The notes under the pieces were generated by a model. The model did no database searches and had not been told where the DNA came from. It worked only from the letters and a program-made list of their open reading frames with translations. A stretch of DNA of 64,000 nucleotides from Trichuris trichiura (taxonomy: Eukaryota > Nematoda > Enoplea > Trichinellida > Trichuridae), in the NCBI GenBank assembly GCA_037903355.1, contig JBAJFE010000042.1:1934001-1998000 (forward strand). The letters are read 5' to 3'. The translations under genes were made by a program, and so were the position numbers. Below, piece after piece: positions 2,285-35,576 of the stretch (within the stretch, counting starts at the first letter, position 1; each line of letters starts with the position of its first letter).

Positions 2285-4072
2285 TCAGCTTTGTGCTGCG
2301 CAAGTATAATTCCTTGATCAGCTCGTGACTTTTAGTGTTCGCGTTTGGCCGAATTTTAACTGCTTTAGTTCAAGTTCCTGCTGTCATTACTTTTGTCGTA
2401 GTATGTTATGTCACGTCGCTGCGGTTATTATAGCAAACGTTTGCAATTTTCTGTAACAAACGTTTGATGCTTCAGAGTTCGAACCTGCGAAGCAGGAACT
2501 GTTTGGGGGGTAAGAACTACGGTGTACCTGCTTAAAAATGGCTGGTATAAAAGACCGCAGTGAATCGAAGGTACGGTTCTAAGCAAAAGTAATGTTTCCA
2601 CGTATGCAAGAAACAATTCAAGCAAGCTTAAATTTCGAATTCTTGGGGGCTATTAGAAATCCCTGCCAACGGTAAAGAAGCCGCCACTTTAGACTACAAG
2701 TCTTTTCTTTAAGTGAAGGCTTCTGAATAACCTGTTACGAAAAAACCAGTACTTTTGGACGGAATCCTTTGAATGTAGGGAAAGTCTGATTTAGCGACTC
2801 TGCGACAAGCATCAAAAAATAAGAGACAGTGCAAGCTGATGAAGTTTCTACTAAGCTGTAGTCCTGGTTCAAAACCTAAGCAGACGAAGTATTTTTCTGG
2901 ATTTGAGGTTTTCGCAGAATGGTAACGCTCATGTAGTGAACACAGCCTGAACTTCGGTATTGAGGCGTCAGTTTTGGATCTGTTTAACAATTTTATATAA
3001 CCTGATATTCTGAATGTAGTAAAGCTACACGAAGCAAATGTTACTACTATGGCCAACAGGAACAATGCAATCACTGGGGTAATGTAGAGTAGGAAGATAC
3101 TGAGCTTTCAGCCAAAATACCTTAACGCCAATCCAGACAGATCGAATAGCTTATGTCAGAAAAAATAGGTTTCAATGCTGAGTAATTTTTAGCGTAGAGA
3201 TGAAGAATGCAGAACTGCGATTCCTATGCTGAATTTGCAAGCATGTCTCCATAAGATCGTTCAGATCCTTCGGAAGCTAGCTGTCATGCAAGGGAAAGTC
3301 AAGGATGAAATGTCCGCAAAGATAGCCTGGAAAGGAAAATCTTAACAGGAGTGCTCTGTGAGTTCTCTACAGCTGAAAATACTGGTTGGTTATCGAGAAG
3401 GAACATCGCTTGAATACCATGGAAATAACAATTCTAAGGACAGCCTTCAGAATACGCGAGATAGATATCAGGAAGTGAAGCAGAGAGAGAAGATGACTAT
3501 CTAGTGAAACAACTGCTGAAATTATTAATAGTGGACAAGGAAGAGAATTTAGATTGATATACAAATTAAATGCAAGATTTGTAGACCCCAACAGAAATCG
3601 TACGAGATAGACAAAGTGATAGAGCGCTCTAGTGTATTCATTGTACAACAATAACTTCCAAATCCTTACAGTATGGTGTGCTTTGCGTTCAGTAAACGTA
3701 TACGCATCTTCGCTTGACAGACTATTACATTACAAATGCGAAAGGAACGAATGGGTTCACAAAGTGCGATTTGGAAATGCAAAATTCCTTGAGCAGGTTA
3801 GTAGTGCCCAGCGTAGAGTTGCGAAGTTACGCTCAGTCGTTTAAAAGTATCACGCATCCGGTAAATGAGCGTACAGTGCGTTGCAGCCTAAGAGTTCATT
3901 CATGTGAATAAGCAGCAGCTGAGCTTTCGCGCCAGCGTTTGCTACTGTAGTAGAAATCTGATCAAGCCAACTTATCCCGATTACGAAACATCCTGCAATG
4001 AGCGAGCAAGGATGACAAAGTTTGCGCAGATGCTTTAGACGCGTAGCATAAACCTGACGGAGTCTACACCTA
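2285..4072. other. Intergenic region left of the retrotransposon array
   Basis: No recognisable gene. The open frames (longest 121 codons on the minus strand at 2709-3074) show no motif I can assign. The segment ends at the target-site duplication of the array. Confidence 0.5.
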
Positions 4073-4077
4073 TAATC
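4073..4077. repeat. Left target-site duplication of the array (TAATC)
   Basis: Five bases directly before the first LTR, repeated exactly after the last LTR at 35572-35576. Five-base duplications are usual for Copia integrases. Confidence 0.85.
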
Positions 4078-4213
4078 TGTTAGAATTTCTGCCCCTTCAT
4101 ACTGTATCATTTGTACCTGAAGGCTAATGACTGTACTGCTGCGTGAGTCAGTCCGCTCGTGTTGTCTGTTGTCCTGCTGAGCGTCTAATAAAGCGGTCTA
4201 CGGATCCTCATCA
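4078..4213 (+). repeat. Copia LTR 1 (5' outer)
   Basis: 136 bp, starting TGTTAGAATTTC and ending GGATCCTCATCA. It is clearly related to LTRs 2-4 but differs from LTRs 2 and 3 at many sites, for example in the middle, where LTR 2 reads TTTTGGGTGTGTTG. An AATAAA-like motif (ctaataaag) lies near 4188. No purine tract precedes it, as expected for a true 5' LTR. Confidence 0.9.
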
Positions 4214-4215
4214 AG

Positions 4216-4228
4216 TGGTAGCAGAGCG
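4216..4228 (+). promoter_or_regulatory. Primer-binding site, initiator-tRNA-Met type
   Basis: TGGTAGCAGAGCG lies two bases after LTR 1. It complements the 3' end typical of animal initiator tRNA-Met. The same site follows LTR 2 (14446) and LTR 3 (24693) but not LTR 4. Confidence 0.8.
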
Positions 4229-4240
4229 TGATTAGATGAC

Positions 4241-5345
4241 ATGATAAACGATAAAGACGATGGTAACCTTCTCAAGCTCAATGGCAGCAATTATCATGAC
4301 TAGAAATTCAATATGGAATGCCTGCTAAGGAAAAAGAACCGATGGAAGTACGTCGATGGGCCGGTTAAACGTCCTGAACAAACACCGATGAATGCTGCTG
4401 AAGTCGAACACTTTGTTGAATAGGCAGAAGTTGCCCAAGCAACAATTGTTCTCGCGATCGAACCGTCTCAGCAACAACACATCCACAATTGTGAAAATGC
4501 TCAGGATGTATGGCAAAGGCTGGAAGCCGCGTCAGAACCGAAGTTTCGCCCTTGCAAGATGCAGCTAACGAGAGCGTCGATCGACAATAAACTCTCTGAA
4601 ACAGAACAGAACCTATGGAAAATCACGTTACGCGCACCAGGCGTCTTGCACTGCAGCTCAAAAAGGTACGCCTCGAATTCAAAGACGATCAATCGACAAA
4701 CATTCTCATAGCCAACTTGCCCGCCAGCTACTATTCAGTAGCGTTAGCAATAATGAGTTGGGACGAATGTAAGTTTACATTTGACGCCGTCAAAAGAGCA
4801 TTGCTTACTGAAAGTTCCCGGAGGCAACAGCAACCAGTTTAAAGAACCGAAATTTCGGAAGCGCTAATTGTGAAGCACGAGCGTAGCCTCTCCATTTCGA
4901 AGCGACGTGTAAACCTATCTGGACGCCGAAAACTGAATCCTATTTGCTACAAGTGCCGTCAGTCAGGACACGTTGCTTGCGAATGCTTTAATGATCCATT
5001 ATCAAGTCGACCACGACGACTTCAAACACCAGTGACTTGGCTCCATGTACAACGCTACCGGGTATTAGCGAAGCGTTTATACTCGACAGTGGAGCAACAC
5101 GCTATATGTGCAGTCAAAGAAACCGGTTTTCGGATTTTTGTCGAATTGAGCTGTCAGAAATCTACTCAGCTGGCGACAGCAAAGAAACACTAAAGGCCCC
5201 AAAAGTCGGGACAATTTACGCAAGACTACCTAGGATACTATGTGGCATTATTGACACGAAGTTACTTGATGCACTTTACGTACCGAAGTATCGTAGAAAT
5301 TTGCTATCAGTGGCTTGTCATTATGTCGTGTTTGAAAAAGGATAG
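4241..5345 (+). pseudogene. Unit 1 Copia gag and protease remnant
   Basis: Gag packages element RNA, and the aspartic protease cuts the polyprotein. The gag frame starts near 4241 with a UBN2/DUF4219-like N-terminus (NLLKLNG...W). It runs, with an internal stop at the codon before AEVAQATIVLA and several frame changes, into a CCHC zinc knuckle at 4945-4986 (CYKCRQSGHVACEC). The protease active site ILDSGAT is at about 5079-5099 and is intact. Protease residues continue to LDALYVPKYRRNLLSV. Stops and shifts mean no functional Gag can be made from this copy. Confidence 0.85.
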
Positions 5346-6420
5346 TGCAAATTTACGAGCTGCCAACAAGAAGTCTTGTTGCTGAAACCCGCGAGAAAGA
5401 TGGGCTGTACATCTTGGATGCGCAGGTATACGCTTAAAGGGGAACGGCATTCAGTGCGCAACAGAAAGACAGTTTCATGTGGCACAAGCGCTGCTGCCAG
5501 AAAACAGTCGTTCACCAGCCTACCGGGACTGTAGAAGTCAGCACAGTGAAAATGTGCACTCTTGGAGCGCCGGCGGTCGAGAAGAGTGCTGGAGCTTGTT
5601 CACTGTGACATCTGCGGACCAATGCCGGTTAAGTCAATTATTGAAACCTTGTATGTCTTGACGTTTATGGCGATTACAGTCGGAAGACATTTGTTGCGTG
5701 CTTAAAAGCAAAGTCAGAAGCGCCAGGTAAGCTCAAAGAGTTTGTTGCATTAGCAGAAAGACAGACTGGAGAGAAGGTTAAAGCTGTCTGAACTGACAAC
5801 AGGTTAGAATGCTGCAACAAAGAATTGCAGTTTTACTCCAGAAAGTTTGCCATAAAGCACTGTTGGAAAATGGCCGCCGAACACACGTCAACAAGAGTGA
5901 CTCCCGGCGGAGGAAGTTAACCACCTACCCACGGGCAATTTGCCAGATGCAGATAAGACGCCTACGCCGATAAGAACGACGCTTGCTCTTTTCTGCTCTG
6001 CGCTGTTATTCTGTTCGCTTGTGCCAGTCCTGATAAGCTGCTTGCTACGTTACGGTGTTTTTCATCATCAAACTGTCTTCGCTTCTCGCTTGCTCTGCAT
6101 GCTAGACTGGAACACGTCTCATTTTTCCAACAAGCACGAACGGTCCAATGTTGAGACGTCGCGAATGAATGGTGTTGCTGAAAGAGCTAACGGAACATTA
6201 ATGGATTTGTCTAGTGCTATGCTGAAGTCAAGCAGTTTGCCCAAGCAATTCTGGGCGGAAGCGATTACGGCGGCCACATATGTCAAAAATAGAGTGTCAT
6301 TCATCGACTGATGAAGCAGTTCCGCGAACGTGGACTGGCAGAAGAGTGAACATCCGTTACCTGCGAGCGTATAGGTGCTTAGCGTACGTGCAGACAATGT
6401 AGCGGGGCCTAAAAAAGCTG
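5346..6420 (+). pseudogene. Unit 1 Copia integrase remnant, split by a solo LTR
   Basis: The DDE integrase inserts the cDNA. Pieces in several frames resemble the Copia integrase: the first catalytic Asp region (about 5590-5640, better kept in unit 2 as LVHCDICGPM), the TDNRLE block near 5797-5814, and the third catalytic Glu in NGVAERANGTL (about 6171-6203) followed by LPKQFWAEAI. A 272-bp insertion at 5861-6132 separates the second and third catalytic regions. Several in-frame stops are present. Confidence 0.8.
5861..6132. mobile_element. Solo LTR nested in the integrase (unit 1)
   Basis: A 272-bp insert that begins TGTTGGAAAA and ends TTTTTCCAACA, with AGCAC on both sides (5856-5860 and 6133-6137). 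The TG...CA ends and the 5-bp duplication fit a solo LTR left by LTR-LTR recombination of another retrotransposon. It does not resemble the Copia LTR or the Gypsy 3' LTR-like segment of this window. Orthologous inserts are in units 2 and 3. Confidence 0.8.
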
Positions 6421-7433
6421 GATGGCCCAGCTGAGGCTGGAATCTTGTCGGCTATGGTATCTACCGCGTGGGATACAGAGTTTCGTTGCCGTGCGAAAAA
6501 GATGGTCGTGGAAAGGTTATTGAGGCGAAATTCATCGAAGACCCTGCGGCAAGCATCTTACTGCGGAAACCCATCAGGGTCAGCCTGCGTCGAAGCCCAC
6601 CACCTCTCCTCAGGCCGCATACTGCTGACCAACTTGCTCCGTCGCTCAGGCAGTATCAAGCTCGGCAGCGACACCGCCTGCTGCCAGAGTCAGCCATCAC
6701 CGTCGTGGCAACTACTGAGCTACTCGGTCTTCGTGAAAATTGTCCTTGAGGCACGCACACTCTCGGCAAGCTGACGACCAGACCGACGAGAGTCCGCGCC
6801 GCCGCCCGCAAGCATCTTACTACGGAAACCTGTTAGAGTCAGCCCGCATGCCGTCTATCCGACTATCGCCAACGGTAGCACGCGTCGAAGCCTCATCGAA
6901 AGTAAGAATGGCTTCAGTGAACTATATGGAGCTAATGAAGTGAATCACAATGCTCCATTGGAGTGGCTACCTATTGATAGTGATACCAATGATGTGAGCG
7001 AAAGGGAATCACATGAAATCAAAAAGTTCACTGAATCCCTTGAAGACGTGGAGGAAAATGGTGAAATAAGTCTATCGCAAAGAAGCGAAATGGACAACGA
7101 AGAAACTGTCCATGTACGTCCTTCAAGGAGACGAAACGCGTAGAAACAGGAAAGTCCAAAGATGAAGTGAATTTTGCAACGTTCATCGATGCTAGCAGTG
7201 TCGATGAGGCATTGTCTTCAAGTGAGGCCAACGAGTGGCAAAAAGCCGTGCACGAAGAACACAGAAGCTTGTTAGCTCGAAACACGTGGATGGAAGTTCA
7301 AATGCCTAAACAACCTACGTTAATTGGCAGCAAGTGGATTTTTCATCGAAGTTAAACAGTGAGGGTAAAGTTCAACGCTACAAGGCACGTTTGGTAGCAC
7401 GGGTGGGGTTTTCCCAGAAAAGTGGCCCGGTAT
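6421..7433 (+). pseudogene. Unit 1 integrase C-tail/linker and Copia RT N-terminal part
   Basis: The linker is Pro/Arg-rich in translation and contains a direct repeat (about 6549-6590 and 6808-6849, both starting GCAAGCATCTTACT). The RT begins with the Copia signature NEWQKAVHEEHRSLL, then NTWMEVQMPKQ and IGSKWIFH (7227-7351). It continues as YKARLVARVGFSQKSG (about 7378-7427), where it stops abruptly at the Gypsy insert. The RT resumes at 9274. Confidence 0.8.
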
Positions 7434-9273
7434 GCTCCCCACCGCAAACCGGTCGGGATCGCTCAAATGATGCGCTTCTACGGCTTGTTAGAAGTGTCAT
7501 CAAACACCTAAAGGAAAATGGAAAAAGGATACCTTTTCCAATTTGGCGAACCAGAAGAGCGACATAGAAGAGTCGGCTGTCCGTGCCGTTGATGAGTAGT
7601 TACGCTTTGAAGTAGAAACTGACGCGTCAGAAGTCGCGTTAGCCGCCGTGCTGAATCAGCTAGGTAGACCCGTAGCCTTCTTCTCGCGAAGTCTACAGCC
7701 ACATGAAAGACGATACGCCGCTGTAGAAAGAGAAGCACAAGCTGTCATCGAAGCAGTGCGGCACTGGCAGCACTACTTGACCGGGAAACATTTCACGATA
7801 AAAACAGACCAGCGTTCAGTAAACTTCATGTTTAGTAAGCAGCACAGGAGTAAAACAAAAAAACGGTAAAATATTGAAGTGGCGGACGGAACTATCCTGC
7901 CTGGACTTCGACATCATTCATCGCCCTGGAAAGGACAATGTCTCGCCGGAAATGTTTTCGAGGATCGCCTGCGGCTTGGTGGCTTATGATAGGAGTCACT
8001 TGAAGCTCTTGCATGAAGGCTCTGCTATCAAGGAGTGACCCGCTTGCAGCACTTTGTAAGATCTAAGAATCTTTCCTACTCGCTCGATGAAATCAGTCAG
8101 GTGGTCAGTGGCTGTCGAGTATGCGCAGAATGTACACCCGTGTTCTATAGCCCTGAAAAAGCTACTCTTATCAAATCTACTCAGCCATTTGAACAGCTAA
8201 ACTTGGACTTCAAGGATCCACTCCGTGGCGACCCCTCTAGTCGATTTTTCCTGTCTGTTATAGATGAGTACTCGAGATTCCCTTTTGCCTTCCCGTGCCG
8301 TGATATGTCGAGTGTCTCAGTCATTAAAGCTCTGACTGAATTATTCTGTTTGTTCGGCGTCCCTGCGTGCGTCCATTCAGACTGTGGAACGGCTTTCATG
8401 AGCCGCGAACTAAGAGATTTCCTTGTAAGCAAAGGCATAGCGTGCTGCAGAACTACAGCTTATAACCCGCAAGGAAATGCGCAAGCTGAACGCTACATCT
8501 GAGTTATCTGGGAAACGGTAACGCTAGCGTTAAGATCGTGGCATATGCCCATCTCGCAATGGCGTACTGCGCTTCCCGACGTACTATACGCTCCGCGCTC
8601 GCTTCTATTTACAGCCACTAATGCTACTCCAGATGAACGAATATTTGGCTGCTGTCGTCGTTCTACTTTGGGCACGTCGTTGCCAGCATGGCTGCCGCGT
8701 CCTCGGCCTGCCCTTCTGAAAAAGCACGTTCGCTCCTGCAAAATGGACCCGTTGGTCGAAGAAGTAGAGTTGGCGGAAGCAAGTACGCAATACGCTCATG
8801 TTAGGTTCCCTGATGGACAAGAGTCTACCGTGTCTCTTCGCGACTGGGCGCCTGCAGGCTACTCTCGTGCTGAATGAAGTCCATATTAATTATGACGATC
8901 AAGATTACCGCCCGAAGAGACGATTGTAGCTGGCCAGGAGTCGTCTGAACTACTGATCGCTGAAGACCGCTTATTGTCAGAGTCCGAATCAGCCCTCGAA
9001 CAAGAACCGACAGCAATCCGTCGGTCGACACGAATACGGCGTTTTCCAGACCGCTTGGACCTCTGACAGCTTTTCCCCGTGAGGTGGGTGAATGTAGGAT
9101 GCTGGCTGATGCTTCAGTGTCGCTTATGGCTCACCGAAACTGCGTACGCTGATCGTTCTCTTACTGTCGAGTTGATGCACGCCCGCTATCTCTAGTGCAC
9201 CGTCTCTTTGACTGCTCTCTCTGTCTCCAGTTGCTAGCCGTCATTTAAGTTCAGTAAAACCAGAGTTTCGTTT
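7434..9273 (+). mobile_element. Nested Ty3/Gypsy pol and 3' LTR fragment (unit 1)
   Basis: This insert reads, in order, a Gypsy RNase H (ETDASEVALAAVL, VAFFSRSLQPHERRYAAVER, 7617-7730), the tether HRPGKDNVS, and an integrase core. The core has LNLDFKDPLRG (first Asp), HSDCGTAFMS (second Asp) and PQGNAQAERYI (Glu) at about 8200-8500. A C-terminal integrase tail runs to about 8876. A possible purine tract (gaggtgggtgaa) and an LTR-like tail from 9093 follow. Gag, protease and most of the RT are missing, so this is 5' truncated or internally deleted. The ends are not sharply defined. All frames are interrupted. Confidence 0.8.
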
Positions 9274-10310
9274 CGTGACAACTACAATGAAACGTACGCC
9301 TCCGTGGTAAGCTTTACCGTAATTGGACTGCTGATGGCATTAGTTCTGCGTTTCAGTTGGCACATACAACATGTTGTTGTGAAATGTGCTTACTTGTCTG
9401 GGAAGCTAACGGAGGAAACCTAAATGAAGTTGCCTGAAGGTTGCGAACACCCTCCGGGAGCAGTAGCAAAGCTGCTGCAGCCAATATACGGAGTAAATCA
9501 GTCAAGGCGAATTTGGAACGAGACGTTGACAACGCTTCTTTTAAACGAAGGAGTTAAAAGGCTGTGGACCAGCAGTTGCGTTTACAATTCACCGAATCGG
9601 ATGATAGTTGTTGCGTACGTTGACGACATAATGCTAATTCATCCTTAGACAGAAAATGACAATGTGATTCATGTGATAGAGCAAGAATACCACATACACA
9701 ATTTAGGGCAACTAAGTTACATGCTGGGCGCAAAAGTGGGCTGGAGAGAGGGAAAATTGCGCATGAACCAGTCAACCACTGTGGAGTGCTACACAAATTT
9801 AAAACGGACCAGTGCAAAGCAGCTTCTACTTGATTGGATCCAAGCATTCAATTGTCAAAATTGAAATGCCCGAAAACGAAAGCAGAGCGTGAAGATATGG
9901 CTTCAGTGCCATACCGTGAATGTACGCAGCGTTGTGTACGCGATCTCACGTTTTATTCGCAGTGTCGGAATTGTCACAGTTTGGTGCAAATCCAGGCAGA
10001 ATTTAGTGGAATCAGAGAAAGAGCGTGTAGCGTTATCTTAGCACGACGAAAGACTGTGAGGTAGCGCTTAAAGGAGAATGTGACAGCACGGCTGAAACTC
10101 ACTGGGATGCGGATTAGGCAGGTGATATAGACTACCGGAAGTCGTGGACCGAAATTGCAGTAAAAGTTGGAGGCACTTTGGTCGGCTGGATTTCCAAAAG
10201 CAACAATGTGTAGCCAGCTCAACGGTGGAAGCAGAACAAATGGAGTTGGCTGCGGCCGCAAAAGAAGCGAAGGGGCTGCAGATGATGTTAAAGGAACTTG
10301 CTGTTTAAGG
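9274..10310 (+). pseudogene. Unit 1 Copia RT C-terminal part and RNase H N-terminal part
   Basis: The Copia RT resumes with DNYNETYASVV, then MKLPEGCEHPPGAVAKLLQP, IYGVNQSRRIWNE and the catalytic YVDD at 9616-9627. RNase H residues (HWDAD, GWISK) follow at about 10100-10200 with stops. The segment ends at ELAV near 10302, where the R2 insert begins after TTAAGG. Confidence 0.82.
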
Positions 10311-13300
10311 GTCACTTGCTGCACAAGAGGCTGCCTTGCCCAGCAAGGTGACAAACGTGAATCAAGTTTTATCAAGCCGGCTGTTTGAGCAACCTGGTCT
10401 GACCATGAAGGTGGAAATGATAATGGATCAGCGGTGGAAATCTCAGTACAAAGAACTCATTTTAGCGCTGAAGTCGGCCGATCCTGCAATAGGCACAGCT
10501 TTACCAGCTTGGTCAGCCGTTCTTACGTCCGCCTACGTTTTACCTGAGAGCAACGACGTTTTATAAGAAATTACACATGCTTTACCAAACGAATTGGCCT
10601 CTACTACGTCAGCTGAAGTTTTATCTGTTAAAGAAAGCGTTTTACTTGATCAGCCTGCAATAGTTTTACCAACAAAGTGCACTGGCAATGTTGCTGATAT
10701 TGATGGCCAACGGCTGGATGATGCTTTGATTGCTGCTTTAACTGAGGCATCCTCTTCCGAAGCTGAAGCTGGCTCCCCTTTCCTGGACCTCGTAGTGCTA
10801 GCCGGACAAGCGCTACTCGGGCGAAATATCTTGGATGAGAATGCAAAGGCAGTTTTAAGACATTTCACCGCCACCCACGAGCGGACACCGCCTGACACCA
10901 ACTACGACCAGGAGGCAGAAACGGATGAGATATCTGCAGCTGATGCGTTTGTATAATACAAACAGGACACGACTCGCAGAACTCGTCCTTGATGGTGTTG
11001 CCCCAGTGGACCACGAAGTGCCCCTCACGGAGTGCGTTGCATTTTACACCGCGGCCTTCGGTGAGTGCTCGCCCCCCGACATGGTTCCATGTCGGCCAAT
11101 GCTCAGGCAACAGGGCGAGCGGGCGCTTACAAATGCATGGGTTTTACCCATTTTATCGGTTGATTTGAGAGCTGCCCTATCGAAGATTTTTCGAAAATCT
11201 GCCGCTGGTCCTGATATAGAGTGACTGTAGACTGTGTAGGCCGGCTGACAGAGACTGAAGTATTACTACTGTTCAACATATGGTTGTTTTATCGAGATGT
11301 TCCAGCCGTCTTTAAGCAATGCCGTGCAGCATTAATTCCGAAAAAGAGCGCCGTAAAAGGACCGGGTGATTAACGGCCAATCACCATTGCTTCAGTGTTC
11401 TATCGACTTTTTACCAAAATTCTAGCCAGCCGACTGTCAAGTATTGTTCATCTCAACTGCAGGCAAAAAGGTTTTACCAGGAAGACTGACGGTTGCGAAG
11501 AGAACACTTTTGTCGTAAACGTTGCACTCGCTCTCTCTTTCTCGTGGTGAGCACGGAGTTGTCGCTGGCCACCCTGGAGATTGCCAAGGCGTTCGATACG
11601 GTGTCCCAGGACTCTGTCCGCCGTGCACTGTTGCGTCAACGCGTGGGAACCAGCGACGTGCAGCTCATAATGAACCTTCTTATCCAGCTCATCTATACGG
11701 ATCAAGCCTTCCTCTGGGGAGTCCAGTTTCATCGCCATGAGGAGAGGAGTCACACAGGGCGACCCAATGTCGCCCTTGTTATTCTCATTGGTGATCGATG
11801 AGCTCCTCGATCAGTTGGTTCGGAATGGTGGAGGCTTCAATTTCACCAATGACGTGCAGGTGAACTGCCTTGCGTTCGCCGATGGCCTACTCCTCCTCAG
11901 CGTACGCAAGACAGGTCTGCAAAGCAATCTGTTGCTTTGTTATCGCTTTTTTACCGCTCACAGCCTGTCCTTAAATTTATAGAAATGCTGTTCGCTCAGG
12001 TTGTATAAACCTCCACGGTGCTGATCAGTGGCTCTTACGATGAAGCTACAGTTTTATCTTGATCCGGCGCAGCCGCACACCGTTTTACCGGTTTTTACCG
12101 TGGCTCAATTTCTTACCTGTCTAGGAATAGAGTTCAATCCGTTTGGTCGGCGGAGCGATCAGATATCAGGAGTGCAGGCGCTCCTGGATCGCGCATGCAA
12201 GGCAGAGTTGAAGCTACAACAGAAGTTAAAGGTTATACGAACGCACTTGTTGCCCAGGTTGCCGTATATATTGACGGCGGGTAATCTACTGAGCCAGACG
12301 GGCGCTACCATTGACAAAATGGTGCGGCGATCAGTGAAAAGGATTCTCCATTTTCCCGTCAGTGCCTTGTCCAATGACTTTATCTATTTACCAAAAAAGA
12401 AAGGCGGACTTGGTTTTATCAATGTGCAGGAAATGGTTGACCGTAGCACGATTCGACTACTGCTCAACATGAGCAGAAGCGCCGACAGAGCTGCACAGTT
12501 TGTCTCCGAGCTCTGGTTTAAACAGCGCCGGCGAAGCCGACTAATGCGGCGACAGAGAGTGGCTACGTTCGATCAGGCTGGTTTAAACGCGGCAAAAACG
12601 GCGCAGGCTGCGGCCCGAGAAGCCAAATTTATAGCCGCGTACCAGGAAACCGGCTACAAGGAGTTCTGTGATTGGCGCAGCAACGGGTGGGTGGCTGATG
12701 ATGAGATGACGGGGCACTGCTTCATCGCCGCACAGAAGGTGAGAACTTCTCTGGTCCCCACGCGCTTGCAGGCCCTTAGGGGCTGAGCTGAACCGGGAGA
12801 CCAGAGAGTTCTCTGGCGGAAGTGTGGCGTAGTAAGTGATGCCTCGGAATCCTTAATCCACATCTCCCAGAACTGCGTCTTCACAGGCGGGCTCATAGTC
12901 CGGAGGCACAATGACATTCTGAATAAACTGATGCAGTCAGCTGAAGCCTCCGGATTCCATTTTGTACATGAGCCCGTGATCTGGTTGGAGAGTGAAACCT
13001 TCAAACCGGATCTGCTCCTCGCGAAAGAAGACACGTGCTGGATTGTTGATGTAGCTGTTCCATGAGGGACAACGGACTCCCTCAATCGATGTCACTCTGA
13101 AATATACCGTAAATACGAGCCCCTCAAAGAGGCGGCTCGTAAGCTCAATGGAGCCAAGAAACTTGGCATCGGCGCGGTGGTTATAGGAGCTCGCGGAGGC
13201 TGATGCAGCTGAAACGTCGAAACATTCAAACAGCTCGGTTCGAATGTCACGGATAGATCTAAAGCGCTACTCTGCACCATGGCGCTGAAACGCACGGTGC

Positions 13301-13768
13301 TGCTGGTGAATTGGTTCTTGAGAAGCAGTGCTCAACTGGCGTTTCGAGCTGAAAGACGGGGCCGCAGCGATCTTAACCGGATTTGACAATCACTCCTCAA
13401 ACGAAGACAAGCCACGGAGTACGGGCACTCCACCTGATGTGGCGAAGAACCAACAAGGGGCACCGGCGAATACAGGCAGCGCGGAAAAGGCTTCATTTCA
13501 GGCCTGACACAGCACTCAGCGGCCAAGAAGGCATAACAGGCAACCCAACAGAAGCGTACTCACTTACTGTTCTTGTTGTTCTTCACCTTTTTGTTCGTTT
13601 AGTCTTCCGTCTTCTTCTTGCTCGGAAGCTGCACGAGCAGGTATGCCTTATGTTCGTTTTGTCCCGACATTAACGCCTTGGATTCTTTTGTTGCAGCACT
13701 TATATTCTGTTATTCTATGTTCGGTATTGCAAGCCGTACTGTAGGTAGACAATGCTAATAAATTTGAA
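10311..13768 (+). mobile_element. Nested R2-type non-LTR retrotransposon (unit 1), probably 5' truncated
   Basis: R2 elements insert at one site in 28S rRNA genes by target-primed reverse transcription. The broken frame here shows an upstream block RYLQLMRLYNTNR, the RT block SAAGPDIE near 11200, LEIAKAFDTVSQ (11578), RGVTQGDPMSPLLFSLVIDEL (11743), and a damaged catalytic FADG in place of FADD (about 11875). A thumb region runs from 12028 to 12786. After this come a CCHC-like motif (CGVVSDASESLIHISQNC) and restriction-like endonuclease residues (KPDLLLA, WIVDVAVP, about 13000-13063). The 3' UTR ends ...aatttgaa at 13768, followed at once by 28S rRNA sequence starting TAGCCAAATG, the authentic R2 3' junction. 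N-terminal zinc fingers were not found. Frameshifts and stops rule out activity. Confidence 0.88.
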
Positions 13769-13779
13769 TAGCCAAATGA

Positions 13780-13813
<34 letters not shown>

Positions 13814-13843
13814 CAACAAGATTCCTACTGTCCCTATCTACCG

Positions 13844-13877
<34 letters not shown>

Positions 13878-14062
13878 CAGAATCAGCGGGGAAAGAAGAC
13901 CCTGTTGAGCTTGAGTCTAGTCTGACTCTGTGAACAGACATTGAACGTTTAGCACAGGTGGGAGACCGGTGGCCTGCTCGCGGTGCCGTGCCAACAGTGA
14001 AATACCACTACTTTGATCGTTTCTTTACTTATTCGGTGAGGCGACTGCATGCCCTCGCTTCT
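13769..14062 (+). rRNA. 28S rRNA fragment downstream of the R2 site (unit 1)
   Basis: About 294 bases match the conserved eukaryotic 28S core immediately 3' of the R2 target. They start TAGCCAAATG and contain CTAATTAGTGACGCGCATGA, GAAACCACAGCCAAGGGAAC, GGAAAGAAGACCCTGTTGAG and GTGAAATACCACTACTTTGA, ending near CTCGCTTCT. It is a fragment, not a gene: the sequence passes directly into Copia RNase H coding sequence at 14063. A few substitutions (for example AAATGACTCG for AAATGCCTCG) show it is free to drift. Confidence 0.93.
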
Positions 14063-14272
14063 CGGTGTATTGGGACAATCAGAGTGCGATAAAATTTGTA
14101 AGTAACCGAATAGAAAGGTCACACTGTCGGCACATCGACATTGCTTATTATATCGCATGCGAAATGGACCAGGAGGTTACAGCAACGTTGAATTACGCAC
14201 TGTTCAGTGAGAACGTTGCAGACGTATTATCGAAGACCCTTCGACCACTTATGCGAAAAGTGAAATGCTGAA
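14063..14272 (+). pseudogene. Unit 1 Copia RNase H C-terminal part
   Basis: The Copia RNase H resumes after the 28S piece with [15 protein letters not shown], then HIDIAYYI and ENVADVLSKTLRPL, ending in a stop at about 14269. A purine tract (aagaaataggaggg, 14284-14297) lies before LTR 2. Confidence 0.88.
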
Positions 14273-14300
14273 TGCGAAAAGTCAAGAAATAGGAGGGCAT

Positions 14301-14443
14301 TGTTAGGATTTCTGTGCCTCTTTATACTGTATCATTTGTACCTGAAGGCTAATGACTTTACTGCTGTGTGAGTCATTTTGGGTGTGTTGTCGGTTACGCT
14401 GTCCTGTTGAGCGTCTAATAAACTGGTCTACGGATCCTCATCA
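14301..14443 (+). repeat. Copia LTR 2 (internal, shared by units 1 and 2)
   Basis: 143 bp, TGTTAGGATTTC to GGATCCTCATCA. It is preceded by a purine tract and followed by a primer-binding site, so it is the 3' LTR of unit 1 and the 5' LTR of unit 2. It reads identical to LTR 3. Confidence 0.92.
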
Positions 14444-20510: not shown

Positions 20511-23500
20511 ATCACTTGTTGCACTAGAGGCTGCCTTGCACAGCAGCGTGACAAACGTGAATCAAGTTTTATCAAGCCGGCTGTTTGAGCAGCCTGGTCT
20601 GACCAGGAACGTGGAAAGGATAAAGGATCAGCGGAGGAATTCTCAGTAAAAAGAACTCGTTTTAGCGCTGAAGTCGACCAATCCTGCAACAGGCACAGCT
20701 TTAATAGATATATCTGACAGGTCAGCTTTACCAGCTCGGTCAGCCCTTCTTATATCCGCCTACGTTTTACCTGAGAGCAACGACGTTTTATAAGAGATTA
20801 CACATGTTTTACCAAACCAATTGGCCTCTACCACGTCCGCTGAAATTTTATCTGTTGAAGAAAACGTTTTACCCGATCAGCCTGCAGTAGTTTTATCAGC
20901 AGAGTGTATTGGCAATGTTGCTGATATTGATGGTCAACGGCTGGATGATGCTTTAACTGCTGTTTTAACTGAAGCATCCCGTTACAAAAATGAGGCTGGC
21001 TCTCTTTTCCTGGACCTCGTAGTGCTAGCCGGACAAGCACTACTCGGGCGAAATATCTTGGACGAGACTGCAGAGGCAGTTTTAAAACATACTTTACCGC
21101 CACCCAGGAGCGGACACCGCCCGACACCAACTTCAACAAATCCACAAGCACCAAGTACGATCCGGAGGCAGAAACGGATGAGATACCGGCAGCTGAAGCG
21201 TTTGTATAATACAAACAGGACACGAATCGCAGAAGTCGTCCTTCATGGTGTTGCGCCAGTGGACAACGAAGTGCCCTTCACGGAGTGCGTTGCATTTCAC
21301 ACCGCGGCCATCGGTTAGTGCTCGCCCCCGACAAGGTTCCATGTCGGCCAAAGCTCAGGCAACAGGGTGAGCGGGCGCTTACAAATGCATTGCTTTTACC
21401 CATTTTACCCGTTGATTTGAGAGCTGCCCTATCAAAGATTTCTAGAAAATCTGCCGCTGGTCCTGATATAGAGTGACCGTGGACCATGTAGGCCGCCTGA
21501 CAGAGGCTGAAGTATTACCACTGTTCAATATACGGTTGTTTTGTCGAGATGTTCCAGCCGTCGTTAAGGAATTCCGTGCAGTATTAATTCCGAAAAAGAG
21601 CGCCGTAAAAGGACTCGGTGATTACCGGCAATCACCATTGCTTCAGTGTTCTATCGACTTTTTACCAAAATTTTAGCCAGCCGACTGTCAAGTATTGTTC
21701 ATCTCAACTGCAGGCAAAAAGGTTTTACCAGGAAGACTGACGAGTGCGGACAGAACACTTTTATCATAAACGCTGCACTCGCTCTCTCTTTCTCGTGGTG
21801 AGCACAGAGAGTTGAGGCTAACCACCCTGGACATTGCCAAGCCGTCCGATACGGTGTCCCACGACTCTGTCCGCCGTGCACTGTTGCGTCGACGCGTGGG
21901 AACCAGCGACGTGCAGCTCATAATGAACCATCTTATCCAGCTCATCTACACGGATCAAGCCTTCCTCTGGGGAGTCCAGTTTCATCCCCATGAGGAGAGG
22001 AGTCACACAGGGCGACCCAATGTCGCCCTTGTTATTCTCATTGGTGATCGATGAGCTCCTCGATCGTTTGGTTCGGAATGGTGGAGGTTTCACTTTCACC
22101 AATGATGTGCAGGTGAACTGCCTTGCGTTCGCCGATGGCCTACTCCTCCTCAGCGACAGCAAGACAGGTCTGCAGAGCAATCTGTTGCTTTGTTATCGCT
22201 TTTTTACCGCTCGCAGCCTGTCCTTAAATGTACAAAAATGCTGTTCGCTCAGGTTGTATAAAATTCCACGGTGCCTATCAGTGGTTCTTACGATGGAGCC
22301 ATAGTTTTATCTTGATCGGGCACAGCCGCACACCGTTTTCCCGGTTTTTACCGCGGCTCAATTTCTTACCTATCTAGGAGTAGAGTTCAATCCGTTTGGT
22401 CGGCAGCGCGATCAGATATCAGGAGCGCAGGCGCTCCTGGATCGCGCATGCAAGGCAGAGTTGAAGCCACAACAGAAATTAGAGCTTATACGAACGCATT
22501 TGTTCCCCAGGTTGCTGTATACATTGACGGTAGATAATCCACTGAGTCACACAGCCACTACCATTGATAGAATGGTGCGGCAAACAGTGAAAAGGATTCT
22601 CCATTTACCGGTCAGTACCCCGTCCAATGATTTGATCTATTTACCAAGAAAGAAAGGCGGACTTGGTTTTATCAATGTGCAGGAAACGGCTGACCGTAGC
22701 ACGATTCGACTACTGCTCAACATGAGCAGAAGCACCGACAGAGCTGCACAGTTTGTCTCCGAGCTCTGGTTTAACCAGCGCCGGCGAAGCCGACTAATGC
22801 GGCGACAGAGCGTGGCTACGTTCGATCAGGCTGGTTTAAACGCGGCAAAAACGGCGCGGGCTGCGGCCTGAGAAGCCAAATTTATGGCCACCTACCAGGG
22901 AACAGGCTATAAGGAGTTCTGTGATTGGCGCAGCAACGGGTGGGTGACTGATGATGGGATGACGGGGCACAGCTTCATCGCCGCACAGAGGTGAGAACGT
23001 CTGTGGTCCCCACGCGCTTGCAGAACCTTAGGGGCCGAGCTGAACCCGGAGACCAGAGAGTTCTCTGCCGGAAGTGCGGCGTAGTAAGTGATGCCTCGGA
23101 ATCCTTAATCCACATCTCCCAGAACTGCGCCTTCACAGGCGGGCTCATAGTCCGGAGGCACAATGACATTCTGAATAAACTGATGCAGTCAGCTGAAGCC
23201 TCCGGTCCATGTTGTACATGAGCCCGTGATCTGGTTGGAGAGTGAAACCTTCAAACCGGATCTGCTTCTCGCGAAAGAAGACTCGTGCTGGATTGTTGAT
23301 GTAGCTGTTCCATGAGGGACAACGGCCTCCCTCAATCGATGCCACGCCGAAATATGCCGTAAATACGAGCCCCTCAAAGAGGCGGCTCGTAAGCTCAATG
23401 GAACCAAGAAACTTGGCACCGGCGCGGTGGTAATAGGAGCTCGGGGAGGCTCATGCAGCCGAAACGACGAAACATTCAAACAGCTCGGTTGGAATGTCAC

Positions 23501-24016
23501 GGATAGATCTAAAGCGCTACTCTGCACTATGGCGCTGAAACGCACGGTGCTGCTGGTGAATTGGTTCTTGAGAAGCAGTGCTCAACTGGCGTTTCGAGCT
23601 GACAGACGGGGCCGCAGCGATCTTAACGGGATTTGACAATCACTCCACAAACGAAGACAAGCCACGGAGTACGGGCACTCCACCTGATGTGGCGAAGAAC
23701 CAACAAGGGGCACCGGCGAATACAGGCAGCGCGGAAAAGGCTTCATGTCAGGCCTGACAAAGCACTCAGCGGCCAAGAAGGCATAACAGGCAACCCAACA
23801 GAAGCGTACTCATTTACTATTCTTGTTGTTCTTCACCTTTTTGTTCGTTTAGTCTTCCGTCTTCTTCTTGCTCGGAAGCTGCACGAGCACGTATGGCTTA
23901 TGTTCGTTTTGTCCCGACATTAACGCCTTGGTTCTTTTGTTGCAGCACTTATATTCTGTTATTCTATGTTCGGTTTGCAAGCCGTACTGTAGGTAAAAAA
24001 TGCTAATAAATTTGAA
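20511..24016 (+). mobile_element. Nested R2-type element (unit 2)
   Basis: 3,506 bp. RT palm block near 21813-21850 and RRGVTQGDPMSPLLF at 21990; the catalytic motif is FADG (22131-22142), as in unit 1. Endonuclease residues with KPDLLLAKED lie near 23255-23285. Compared with unit 1 it has small extra segments, for example about 20704-20727, and its own frameshifts. It ends ...tttgaa directly before 28S sequence. Confidence 0.87.
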
Positions 24017-24026
24017 TAGCCAAATT

Positions 24027-24061
<35 letters not shown>

Positions 24062-24309
24062 CAACAAGATTCCTACTGTCCCTATCTACCGTCTAGCGAA
24101 ACTACAGCCAAGGGAACGGGCTTGGTAGAATCAGCGGGGAAAGAAGACCCTGTTGAGCTAGAGTCTAGTCTGACTCTGTGAACAGACATTGAACGTTTAG
24201 CACAGGTGGGAGACCGGTGGCCTCTCGCGGTGCCGTGTCAAGAGTGAAATAGGACTACTTTGATCGTTTCTTTACTTATTCGGTGAGGCGACTGCATGCC
24301 CTCGCTTCT
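24017..24309 (+). rRNA. 28S rRNA fragment downstream of the R2 site (unit 2)
   Basis: Starts TAGCCAAATTCC and ends CTCGCTTCT, then Copia RNase H follows at once. About 293 bases, with small differences from units 1 and 3. Confidence 0.92.
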
Positions 24310-24547: not shown

Positions 24548-24690
24548 TGTTAGGATTTCTGTGCCTCTTTATACTGTATCATTTGTACCTGAAGGCTAAT
24601 GACTTTACTGCTGTGTGAGTCATTTTGGGTGTGTTGTCGGTTACGCTGTCCTGTTGAGCGTCTAATAAACTGGTCTACGGATCCTCATCA
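24548..24690 (+). repeat. Copia LTR 3 (internal, shared by units 2 and 3)
   Basis: 143 bp, reads identical to LTR 2, with purine tract before and primer-binding site after. Confidence 0.92.
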
Positions 24691-30735: not shown

Positions 30736-33700
30736 GTCACTTGCTGCACTAGAGGCTGTCTTGCCCAGCAAGGTGACAAACGTGAATCAAGTCTTATGAA
30801 GCCGGGTGTTTGAGCAACCTGGTCTGACCAGGAACGTGGAAATGATGAAGGATCAGCGGAGGAAATCTCAGTACAAAGAACTCATTTTAGCGCTGAAGTC
30901 GGCCGATCCTGCAACAGGCATAGCTTTACCAGCTTGGTCAGCCGTTCTTACGTCCGCCTACGGTTTACCTGAGAGCAACGACGTTTTATAAAAGATTACA
31001 CATGTTTTACCAAACGAATTGGCCTCTACCACGTCCGCTGAAGCTTTATCTGTTAAAGAAAACGTTTTACCTGATCAGCGTGCAATAGCTTTGCTAACAG
31101 AGTGCACTGGCAATGTTGCTGATATTGATGGCCAACAGCTGGATGATGCTTTAATTGCTGCTTTAACTGAGGCATACCGTTCCGAAGCTGAGGCTTGCTC
31201 TCTTTTCCTGGACCTCGTAGTGCCAGCGGGACAAGCACTACTCGGGCGAAATATCTTGGATGAGACTGCAAAGGCAGTTTTAAAACATATTTCAGCGCCA
31301 CCCAGGAGAAAACACCGCCTGACACCAACTACGATCAGGAGACAGAAACGGATGAGATACCGGCAGCTGATGCGTTTGTATAATACAGGGGTGGGGAACG
31401 TCCGGCCCGCAAGGCCATCCCATCCGGCCCGCGAAGCCATTTTCCGCCCACGCGCTAGGGCAAGCGCACATGGATGCGAGATTCAGTGAAATGTGATTGT
31501 AGAAAGTTATTTTTCATAAAGCGATAAACGTATTTTATGTGAATCCTAGTAAGAACATAAATCTTGCGTAACAAGCAGGGAGCGTCAGGCTGGCTCGAAA
31601 GACTGAGTTGCTGACAGCTCTCTGCCGACAAACCGACATTGTTAGTCCTTGGTGACAAGCAGTAGGCGCCACTGTAATGTGTGTGCGCGCATAAGTAGCG
31701 TGGACCATTCCTTTGATCGAGATAACGACTGTCCAGCTTGCTAGAGCACTTCTGCTTTTTTGCTCTCAGTAGTCACTGGCGTAGTTCTCGCCTTCCTCTT
31801 GCTATCGTTCTCAACGGTTTGCGCCGGTCGCCTGTCATATACGTCTTCGAAGTACAAAAAAGTTATTTCGTTCGCCGCAGTTGCAATTATGTTTTTTACA
31901 AATGGGTTGCAGAATTGTCTCAAAATTCTGCCTTTTATCTCGGAGTTTCCTCTCCAGGGAAAAGCAGTTCCAAGCATCCCATTAGGGGTGACTTAATAAA
32001 CATACATGCAAATAAAGCAGGCTGTTCTTCGTTTAAATACGCTATACGGCCCGCGAACGGTCTTATAAACGTCTAAACGGCCCGCGGCACCAAAAAGGTT
32101 CCCCACCCCTGGTATAATACAAACAGGACACGACTCGCAGAAGTCGTCCTTGATGGTGTTGCCCCAGTGGACCATGAAGTGCCCCTCACGGAGAGCGTTG
32201 CATTTTACACCGCGGCCTTCGGTGAGTGCTCGCCCCCCGACATGGTTCCATGTCGGCCAATGCTCAGGCAACAGGGCGAGCGGGCGCTTACAAATGCATG
32301 GGTTTTACCCATTTTATCGGTTGATTTGAGAGCTGCCCTATCGAAGATTTTTCGAAATTCTGCCACTGGTCCTGATATAGAGTGACTGTGGACTGTGTAG
32401 GCCGGCTGACAGAGACTGAAGTATTACAACTGTTCAACATATGGTTGTTTTATCGAGAGATTCCAGCTGTCCTTAAGGAATGCCGTGCAGCATTAATTCC
32501 AAAAAAGAGCGCCGTAAAAGGACACGGTGATTACCGGCCAATCAGCATTGCTTCAGTGTTCTATCGACCTTTTACCAACATTTTAACCAGCCGTCTGTCA
32601 AGTATTGTTCATTTCAACTGCAGGCAAAAAGGTTTTTTCAGGAAGACTGACGGGTGCGGAGAGAACACTTTTATTCTAAACGCTGCACTCGCTCTCTCTT
32701 TCTCGTGGTGAGCACAGAGAGTTGAGGCTGGCACACCTGGACATTGCCAAGGCGTTCGATACGGTGTCCTACAACTCTGTCCGCCCTGCACCGTTGCGTC
32801 AACGCGTGGGAACCTGCGACGTGCAGCTCATAATGAACCATCTTATCCAGCTCATGTGCAGGGATCAAGCCTTCCTCTGGGGAGTCCAGTTTCATCCTCA
32901 TGAGGAGAGGAGTCAAGCAGAGCGACCCAATGTCGCCCTTGTTATTCTCATTGGTGATCGATGAGCTCCTCGATCAGTTGGTTCAGAATGGCTGAGATTT
33001 CACTTTCACCAATGATGTGCAGGTGAACTGCCTTGCGTTCGCCGATGACCTACTCCTCCTCAGCGACAGCAAGACAGGTCTGCAGAGCAATCTGTTGCTT
33101 TGTTATCGCTTTTTTACCGCTCGCAGGCTGCCCTTAAATGTACAAAAATGCTGTTCGCTCAGGTTGTATAAAATTCCACGGTGCCTATCAGTGGTTCTTA
33201 AGATGGAGCCATAGTTTTATCTTGATCCGGCACAGCCGCATACCGTTTTACCGGTTTTTACTGCGGCTCAATTTCTTACCTGTCTAGGAGTAGGGTTCAA
33301 TCCGTATGGTCAGCGGCGCTGTCGGATATCAGGAGTGCAGGCGCTCTTGGATCTCGCATGCAAGGCAGAGTTGATGCTACTACAGAAGTTAGAGGTTATA
33401 CGAACGCACTTGTTGCCTAGCTTGGGGTATACATTGACGGTGGGTAACCACTGAGCCAGACGGCCGCTGCCATTGATGAATTGGTGCGGCAAGCATTAAA
33501 AGGACTCTCCATTTACCCGTCAGTACCCAGTCGAATGATTTTATCTATTTACCAAAAAAGAAAGGCGGACTTGGTTTTATCAATCTGCAGGCAACGGCTG
33601 ACCGTAGCACGATTCGACTACAGCTCAACATGAGCAGAAGCGCCGGCAGAGCTGCACAGTTTGTCTCTGAGCTCTGGTTTAACCATCGCCGGCGAAGCCG

Positions 33701-34927
33701 ACTAATGCGGCGACAGAGCGTGGCTACGTTCGATCAGGCTGGTTTAAACGCGGCAAAAACGGCGCGGGCTGCGGCCCGAGAAGCCAAATTTATGGCCGCG
33801 TACAAGGGAACAGGCTACAAGGAGTTCTGTGATTGGCGCAGCAACGGGTGGGTGGCTGATGATGGGATGACGGGGCACAGCTTCATCGCTGCACTGAAGG
33901 TGAGAACTTTTCTGGTCCCCACGCGCTTGCAGGCCCTTAGGGGCCGAGCTGAACCGGGAGACCAGAGAGTTCTGTGGCGGAAGTGCGGCGTAGTAAGTGA
34001 TGCCTCGGAATCCTTAATCCACATCTCCCAGGACTGCGCCTTCACAGGCGGGCTCATAGTCCGGAGGCAGAATGACGTTCTGAATAAGCTGATGCAGTCA
34101 GCTGAAGCCTCCTGATTCCATGTTGTACATGAGCCGGTGATCCGGTTGGAGAGTGAAACCTTCAAACGGAATTTGCTCCTCACGAAAGAAGACTCGTGCT
34201 GGATTATTGATGTAGCTGTTCCATGAGAGACAACGGACTCCTTCAATCGATGCCACGCCGAAAAATGCCGTAAATACGAGCCCCTCAAAAAGGGGGCTCG
34301 TAAGCTCACTGGAGCGAAGAAACTTGGCACCGGCGCGGTGGTTATAGGAGCTCGGGGAGGCTGATGCAGCCGAAACGACGAAACATTCAAACAGCTCGGA
34401 TGAAATGTGGCGGATAGATTTAAAGCGCTACTCTGCACTATGGCGCTGATACGCACGGTGCTGCTGGTGAATTGGTTCTTGAGAAGCAGTGCTCAACTGG
34501 CGTTTCGAGCTGACAGACGGGGCCGCAGCGATTTTAACCGGATTTCACAATCACTCCACAAAGAAGACAGGCCACGAAGTACGGGCACTCCACCTGACGT
34601 GGCGAAGAACTAGCAAGGGGCACAGGCGAATACAGGCAACGGGGAAGAGGCTTCATGTCAGGCCTGACGTAGCACTCAGCGGCCAAGAAGGCATAACAGG
34701 CAACCCAACAGAAGCGTACTCATTTACTATTCTTGTTGTTCTTCACCTTTTTGTTCGTTTAGTCCTCCGTCTTCTTCTTGCTCAGCAGCTTCACGAGCAC
34801 GTATGGCTTATGTTCGTTTTGTCCCGACATTAACGCCTTGGTTCTTTTGTTGCAGCACTTATATTCTGTTATTCTATGTTCGGTTTTGCAAGCCGTGCTG
34901 TAGGTAGACAATGCTGATAAATTTGAA
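30736..34927 (+). mobile_element. Nested R2-type element (unit 3), interrupted by a hAT-like insertion
   Basis: 3,458 bp once the hAT-like element and one duplication copy are subtracted, the same length as in unit 1. The RT catalytic motif is intact here (LAFADDLLLLS, about 33032-33064), unlike units 1 and 2. The frame still has shifts and stops, for example at 32997. CCHC and endonuclease regions lie near 33980-34210. Confidence 0.87.
31386..32111. mobile_element. hAT-like non-autonomous DNA transposon
   Basis: 726 bp with 14-bp perfect terminal inverted repeats (CAGGGGTGGGGAAC at each end, inverted). A perfect 8-bp duplication, GTATAATA, lies at 31378-31385 and 32112-32119. Eight-base duplications and CAGGGGTG-type ends are typical of hAT elements. 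GGCCCGC motifs repeat near both ends. No transposase motif is visible in the frames inside (31738-32076 is the longest), so it is probably non-autonomous. It is absent from the same site in units 1 and 2, where GTATAATAC is single. Confidence 0.92.
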
Positions 34928-35043
34928 TAGCCAAATGCCTCGTTATCTAATTAGTGACGCGCATGAATGGATCAAGAAGATTCCTACTGTCCCTATCCAC
35001 CGTCTGGCGAAACCACAGCCAAGGGAACGGGCTTGGCAGAATC

Positions 35044-35081
<38 letters not shown>

Positions 35082-35220
35082 TGACTCTGTGAACAGACAT
35101 TGAAGGTTTAGCACAGGTGGGAGACCGGTGGCTGCTCGCGGTATTGTGCCAGCAGTGAAATACCACTACTTTGATCGTTTCTTTACTTATTCGGTGAGGC
35201 GACTGCATGCCCTCGCCTGT
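34928..35220 (+). rRNA. 28S rRNA fragment downstream of the R2 site (unit 3)
   Basis: Starts TAGCCAAATGCCTCG (the canonical bases at the position mutated in units 1 and 2) and ends CCTCGCCTGT before Copia RNase H. About 293 bases. Confidence 0.93.
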
Positions 35221-35437: not shown

Positions 35438-35571
35438 CGTTAGGATTTCTGTCCCTTTTTGTACTGTACCATTTGTACCTGAAGATTAATAACTGTATTG
35501 CTGTGTGGGTCATTCTTTGTGTTGCGTTGTCCCGCTGAGTCTCCAGCAAGCTGGTCTAGGGATCCTCATCA
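35438..35571 (+). repeat. Copia LTR 4 (3' outer)
   Basis: 134 bp. It starts CGTTAGGATTTC (the first T of TG has mutated) and ends GGATCCTCATCA. No primer-binding site follows. It is the most divergent LTR together with LTR 1. Confidence 0.88.
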
Positions 35572-35576
35572 TAATC
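35572..35576. repeat. Right target-site duplication of the array (TAATC)
   Basis: Exact copy of 4073-4077, immediately after LTR 4. Confidence 0.85.

Follow-up and report, generated by a model that had tools for sequence, protein, structure and literature searches.

How an R2 element still joined to 28S rRNA sequence came to lie within the codons of a Copia retrotransposon is the question raised by the stretch of Trichuris trichiura DNA analysed here, referred to below as the window (64,000 nt, C2:1934001-1998000). The first-pass annotation of the window read this composite as a captured R2-28S read-through RNA, which was either reverse transcribed at an off-target site in Copia or joined to it by a template switch while Copia was being reverse transcribed. 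The structure of the locus, the R2 copies of the rDNA and the stray R2 copies of the 72.7-Mb, 62-contig assembly together provide the evidence on which these and other explanations can be weighed.

A tandem Copia array with three R2-28S inserts

The array (4078-35571) is arranged as LTR-internal-LTR-internal-LTR-internal-LTR, with three tandem units and a single 5-bp TSD, TAATC, bracketing the entire structure at 4073-4077 and 35572-35576 (no strand assigned). The 5-bp TSD and the short LTRs are features of Copia elements, as is the order RT, then RNase H. All parts of the array lie on the plus strand and include the outer 5' LTR (LTR1, 4078-4213), the unit 1 internal region up to the RNase H with nested inserts inside it (4214-10298), the remainder of the unit 1 RNase H with the purine tract (14044-14300), two inner LTRs identical to each other (LTR2, 14301-14443; LTR3, 24548-24690) and the outer 3' LTR (LTR4, 35438-35571). 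The names RNase H and RT for the Copia pieces of the window are presumptive assignments; a Copia relative on C56 (L014) carries the Pfam domain RVT_2. Since one TSD surrounds the whole array, it is read as a single Copia insertion that was probably amplified in place. Three independent captures of R2 are ruled out by the LTR-linked tandem units inside one TSD.

In all three units the RNase H part of the Copia internal region is interrupted, and the interrupting sequence consists of R2 followed by a 28S rRNA tail. The R2 of unit 1 (10313-13768) is 5'-truncated and its reading frame is broken; those of units 2 and 3 occupy 20513-24016 and 30738-34927, the last being split by a non-autonomous transposon of ~0.73 kb. 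At 13769, 24017 and 34928 the R2 3' end abuts TAGCCAAATG of 28S, which is the canonical junction, as had been noticed in the first pass. The tails extend over 13769-14043 (271 nt, up to 275), 24017-24290 and 34928-35201 and are identical to the 28S of the genome's own rDNA at 262, 254 and 258 of 270 positions in units 1, 2 and 3, respectively, corresponding to divergences of 8, 16 and 12 of 270 (3.0, 5.9 and 4.4%). This alignment to the host 28S confirms the identity of the tails, and it also shortens the ~293 bases originally claimed, since the match in unit 1 stops at 14039-14043 and the last ~20 nt of the claimed stretch are Copia. The single Rfam match above the gathering score in the window is the 28S of unit 3 (51.9 bits against 50), with units 1 and 2 below it, in agreement with the statement that the window has no other rDNA.

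The assignment of the insert to R2 is borne out by its match to R2 in the genome's rDNA on contig C35 (77.9-78.7% identity over 1.7-2.4 kb). Relative to the rDNA R2 used as reference, where R2 proper begins at ~46, the window copies start at about nt 1068, and they lack the 5' region where the N-terminal zinc fingers would be. Their longest open frame (12028-12786, 252 aa) matched no Pfam family. In a tree with eight rows of the R2 family designated family I below, the window copies form one clade (support 100/100), the sister of which is a copy on C1 (100/99). The transposon inside the unit 3 R2 (31386-32111) has the ends CAGGGGTGGGG...CCCCACCCCTG and an 8-bp TSD, GTATAATA; it is a putative hAT-like element.

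The Copia codons of unit 1 extend to ~10298-10305 (QCVASSTVEAEQMELAAAAKEAKGLQMMLKELAV) on the left and restart at ~14041 (ATACPRFSVYWDNQSAIKF) on the right, and the insert is therefore placed inside codons taken to be those of RNase H, as first described. The Copia sequence and the R2 5' end are separated by a filler of 14 nt (10299-10312, plus strand), in which a Copia stretch from ~20 nt upstream is repeated as TGTTTAAGG, and ACTTGCTG is present twice. At the left junction, where Copia reaches to 14 nt from R2, the window shows no upstream 28S, and at the 3' junction 28S and Copia overlap by only ~1-3 nt. Both junctions recur in units 2 and 3; because they are shared by three diverged copies, they are not a product of chance. 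The site is empty and intact in nine of 12 related Copia loci, in which the left and right sides are 14 bp apart, while the other three have a different insert nearby, a diverged sequence with a left match only, and a right match only. Compared with these empty sites, 6-7 bp (AAACTG or GAAACTG) are missing from the window, and the R2 insert is not flanked by a TSD.

The R2 and 28S segments differ by 3.7-9.4% from unit to unit, similar to most Copia segments, implying that the triplication came after the capture. The first ~1.2 kb of units 2 and 3, around the inner LTRs, is identical, while other 300-bp stretches are mostly 1-12% different; the identity may stem from gene conversion or a crossover that took place recently. 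Between the two outer LTRs, 30 of 132 sites differ (~11% per lineage). When half of the LTR differences are set against the differences in the 28S tails, Fisher's test gives p = 0.001, 0.072 and 0.018 for units 1, 2 and 3, in a comparison that is small and involves units that are not independent, an array in which gene conversion is active and LTRs that may evolve faster. As the outer LTRs look older than the tails, these values suggest that Copia was resident before the R2-28S sequence was captured.

The Copia of unit 1 holds further nested inserts. A solo-LTR-like insert (5861-6132) has the ends TGTTGG...CCAACA and the TSD AGCAC, another insert of ~360 bp lies at 6531-6892, and a 1.85-kb piece in the Copia RT (7426-9280), called Gypsy-like from one similarity match and from reading by eye, is without a TSD and has replaced a few bp. 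A segmental duplicate of window 2665-5715 (L044, C2:1580808 on) is 92% identical and covers the 5' flank of the array and the first LTR; it showed no R2, 28S or RNase H match among the matches listed from the DNA searches of the genome.

R2 in the rDNA and at stray sites

The first-pass annotation had proposed a search for R2 in the rDNA. The rDNA region read on C35 contains three 28S copies, of which one lacks the 5' part, and all three are joined to R2. Two families, labelled I and II for the purpose of this analysis and sharing 37% protein identity, are present there, family I in one copy and family II in two. Insertion at the R2 site of 28S was found for these rDNA copies and not for the window copy, which lies in Copia. 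In the family I rDNA copy, 1209 codons form an open frame that spans the RT and a putative endonuclease, named from its motif; this frame matches the R2 proteins of the solved structures 9nl3, R2Tg 9dou and 8gh6 with E values down to 1.7e-109. Among proteins, two reverse transcriptases of Trichuris muris come closest to the rDNA R2, with identities of 54% and 49%. Finger-like motifs are seen by eye in two frames, and because such motifs are in a frame other than that of the 1209 codons the family I copy is not called intact. No ribozyme family reached the Rfam gathering score at loci L009 and L010, and the window copy lacks the R2 5' end. At L012 (C35 ~95.6 kb) and L078 (C1:6245670), 28S sequence ~800-976 nt downstream of the R2 site directly precedes upstream 28S and R2, an arrangement for which template jumps or rDNA rearrangements are possible explanations.

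This genome contradicts the view that R2 is normally confined to rDNA, on which the first-pass annotation relied. Searching its DNA with 28S and with R2 3' ends yielded overlapping sets of 11, 15 and 20 matches, which are lower bounds, and with the window units taken as one locus there are nine independent non-rDNA loci with a readable R2 3' end. In six of the nine, R2 runs on into downstream 28S, over a length of 31 to ~312 nt and to an end point that varies: 271-275 nt in the window, ~312 nt on C10 (family II), ~141 nt at C48/C56 (family I at C56), 85 nt on C9, ~44 nt at C1:6250 kb, and 31 nt on C26, where the sequence then jumps to 28S position ~930. The other three have at most 10 nt (5-10 nt at C2:4468 kb, 3 nt at C1:6855 kb and 6 nt on C45). 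The tails occur in both R2 families. Kept apart from this count are a C42 fragment of 28S that includes upstream 28S and has no clear R2 part, a family I copy on C26 that has lost its 3' end, and divergent 28S-only matches at C61, C1:743 kb and C1:725 kb. The C10 and C56 tails share a 13-nt deletion in 28S and a G-to-C change, both absent from the three C35 copies, which suggests either that the two tails derive from one variant 28S or that slippage has recurred.

Only the window and C9, among the six tailed loci, have a clean empty site. The C9 copy is an internally deleted R2 that interrupts a frame with Tc5-type transposase domains in its upstream part (Pfam); it begins within ~3 nt of the 5' end of the rDNA R2 and has no upstream 28S. 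Two empty copies of the target read GGTCGCTC-A-GAAAC-AAGAAC, and the filled site consists of GGTCGCTC, R2, 28S ending in GCGAAAC, and then AAGAAC. Compared with the two empty copies, 1 bp of the target has been lost and a 5-nt GAAAC is common to 28S and target. Among the matches listed for the C9 left flank, the right flank is 22 or 23 bp away in 33 of 39 other copies. The frame to the right of C9 and the frames beside C42 matched no Pfam family and are read as transposase by eye.

The surroundings of the other stray copies are diverse. The copy at C1:6245670-6250592 includes upstream 28S (168 nt), with an additional 28S piece in front of it; at its left end is an integrase zinc-binding domain in antisense (Pfam), read as Gypsy type, and the first 228 bp of its right flank have no other match in the genome and give no empty site. 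RT and RNase H domains in antisense (Pfam), also read as Gypsy type, lie beside the C2:4468 kb copy, and a Tc5-type domain (Pfam) lies beside that at C1:6855 kb. The right flank of C56 is found once in the genome, matching itself alone. The position of the C56 tail beside a Copia LTR was considered as a sign of Copia involvement and dropped, because that Copia appears to have entered the R2 3' end later, with the TSD CTAAT. The contig ends at C48:~2584 and C56:~2080 (L074, L014) both seem to lie inside one Copia copy, and the TSD CTAAT suggests that C48 and C56 are neighbours split by an assembly break.

Possible origins of the composite

The window composite probably arose by off-target R2 TPRT from a 28S read-through RNA into a resident Copia. 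R2 would have been transcribed within the rRNA precursor, giving an RNA that reads past the R2 3' end into downstream 28S, and the R2 protein, as the putative reverse-transcribing agent, would have taken this RNA to a non-rDNA site in the Copia already present. Reverse transcription would have started ~270 nt into 28S, copied 28S and then R2, and halted ~1 kb before the R2 5' end, whereupon a short filler and the loss of 6-7 bp would have accompanied the joining of the new end to Copia. Recombination between Copia LTRs may later have triplicated the R2-28S-Copia composite. In its favour are the empty sites, the canonical R2 3' junction of all three units, the tails of differing length at six of the nine stray loci and in both families, and the C9 insert with its 5-nt overlap. 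Over template switching it is favoured by the tailed R2 copies at C9, in a Tc5-type gene, and at C56, beside single-copy DNA, which would not obviously result from Copia reverse transcription, and by outer Copia LTRs that seem to be older than the 28S tail. An R2 that combines a complete 5' end with a 28S tail, as at C9, is predicted for an RNA template and would rarely be given by a random rDNA fragment. Against off-target TPRT, the missing TSD and the 14-nt 5' filler also fit end-joining of R2-28S cDNA or DNA, and the overlap between 28S and Copia is very short. The earlier reading is thus retained in part: read-through RNA is the likely source and an off-target site is the favoured branch of the proposal, while template switching becomes less likely in view of C9, C56 and the age of the LTRs.

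The features that weaken off-target TPRT are the ones on which a repair origin would draw, in which end-joining would have filled a double-strand break of the resident Copia with R2-28S cDNA or a piece of rDNA. The loss of bases without a TSD and the local repeats within the filler would suit such an event. The Gypsy-like piece at 7426-9280, which also lies in this Copia copy without a TSD, is a sign of local break repair, and the upstream 28S in the C42 fragment and the C1 copy is a further point in favour. Nevertheless, break repair is considered unlikely, given that the C9 R2 starts at its own 5' end in an insert that is clean on both sides, that tails are found in two R2 families, and that upstream 28S is absent from the left junction in both the window and C9. 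Rather improbable is a template-switching origin, by which R2-28S RNA was packaged with Copia RNA, two switches occurred during Copia reverse transcription and the resulting chimera integrated. The common sense orientation of R2 and Copia, the lack of a TSD at the insert and the one TSD around the whole array agree with it, whereas the tailed R2 copies at C9 and C56 are placed in a Tc5-type transposase gene and next to single-copy DNA, the 30 of 132 differences between the outer LTRs are above expectation if these are as old as the tails (8-16 of 270), and the composite was seen at one locus only among the matches listed from non-exhaustive genome searches.

Two further explanations carry very little weight. 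Entry of R2 into its normal site in a 28S fragment already lying in Copia would agree with the canonical 3' junction and is highly improbable in the face of a left junction where Copia, with no upstream 28S, comes to within 14 nt of R2; a Copia copy with a 28S fragment and without R2 was found neither in the 12 related loci nor among the matches listed from the genome searches. The joining of rDNA reads to Copia as an assembly artefact has a practically negligible chance, as both junctions recur in three copies whose R2 and 28S segments are diverged to the extent given above and the window sequence has no N.

The stray copies are not all simple, as the upstream 28S of the C1 copy and the jump within 28S in the C26 tail indicate. 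That R2 in this lineage regularly leaves the rDNA on 28S read-through RNA, with priming by few-base pairing anywhere in the 28S tail, is a proposal whose chances appear evenly balanced. If true, each R2 escape would plant a 28S fragment of different length, producing a natural record of R2 RNA 3' ends, and R2 families would have a route to gain 28S-derived 3' ends or to shift targets. Stray R2 tails of up to ~312 nt in two families constitute natural evidence that template RNAs can reach that far. Such copies bear on the off-target behaviour of R2, which is relevant for R2-based gene insertion tools, and on the spread of ribosomal fragments in genomes.

Relation to known systems

Tandem LTR-retrotransposon arrays are a known system, which the window resembles in its LTR-internal-LTR repeats inside one TSD and from which it differs in that the repeated unit holds an R2-28S insert. 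R2 outside 28S was reportedly described by Xiong et al. in 1988. The likeness to 28S-specific R2 lies in the RT homology of the rDNA relative, the 28S junction of the rDNA copies and the 5' truncation; in contrast, the window and eight other loci are outside rDNA, and six of these nine have at least 31 nt of downstream 28S. In the titles and abstract openings of the open-licence literature searched, no report described R2 copies outside rDNA with long 28S tails.

Passages in PMC12222951 and PMC3774820 describe R2 as co-transcribed with 28S, and the former passages also state that the natural 3' end of R2 RNA is unknown. In the relevant part of PMC2718515, Drosophila R1 copies outside 28S are reported to carry up to 14 nt of downstream 28S, taken there as a sign that the template RNA includes 28S, and extra-rDNA R2 copies are recorded in five Drosophila species. 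The R1 copies are similar to those described here in that stray copies sometimes have downstream 28S, whereas the tails here measure 31 to ~312 nt and are on R2; the passages of that paper considered here mention no 28S tails on the Drosophila extra-rDNA R2 copies. Fish R2, as portrayed in part of PMC5035012, has 28S-like parts in its 3' UTR, and two families (R2NS) have lost target specificity, so that 28S sequence joined to R2 and the loss of strict targeting are shared with the present case. However, the fish examples concern a segment of a family's 3' UTR or a target-less family, while the Trichuris tails vary by copy and both Trichuris families keep rDNA copies. For off-target insertions of R2Tg in human cells, a section of PMC12222951 reports downstream sequence matching 4-5 nt of the donor's 3' homology, to which the GAAAC overlap at C9 may be compared; the donor in those experiments was engineered, whereas the Trichuris copies are a natural record.
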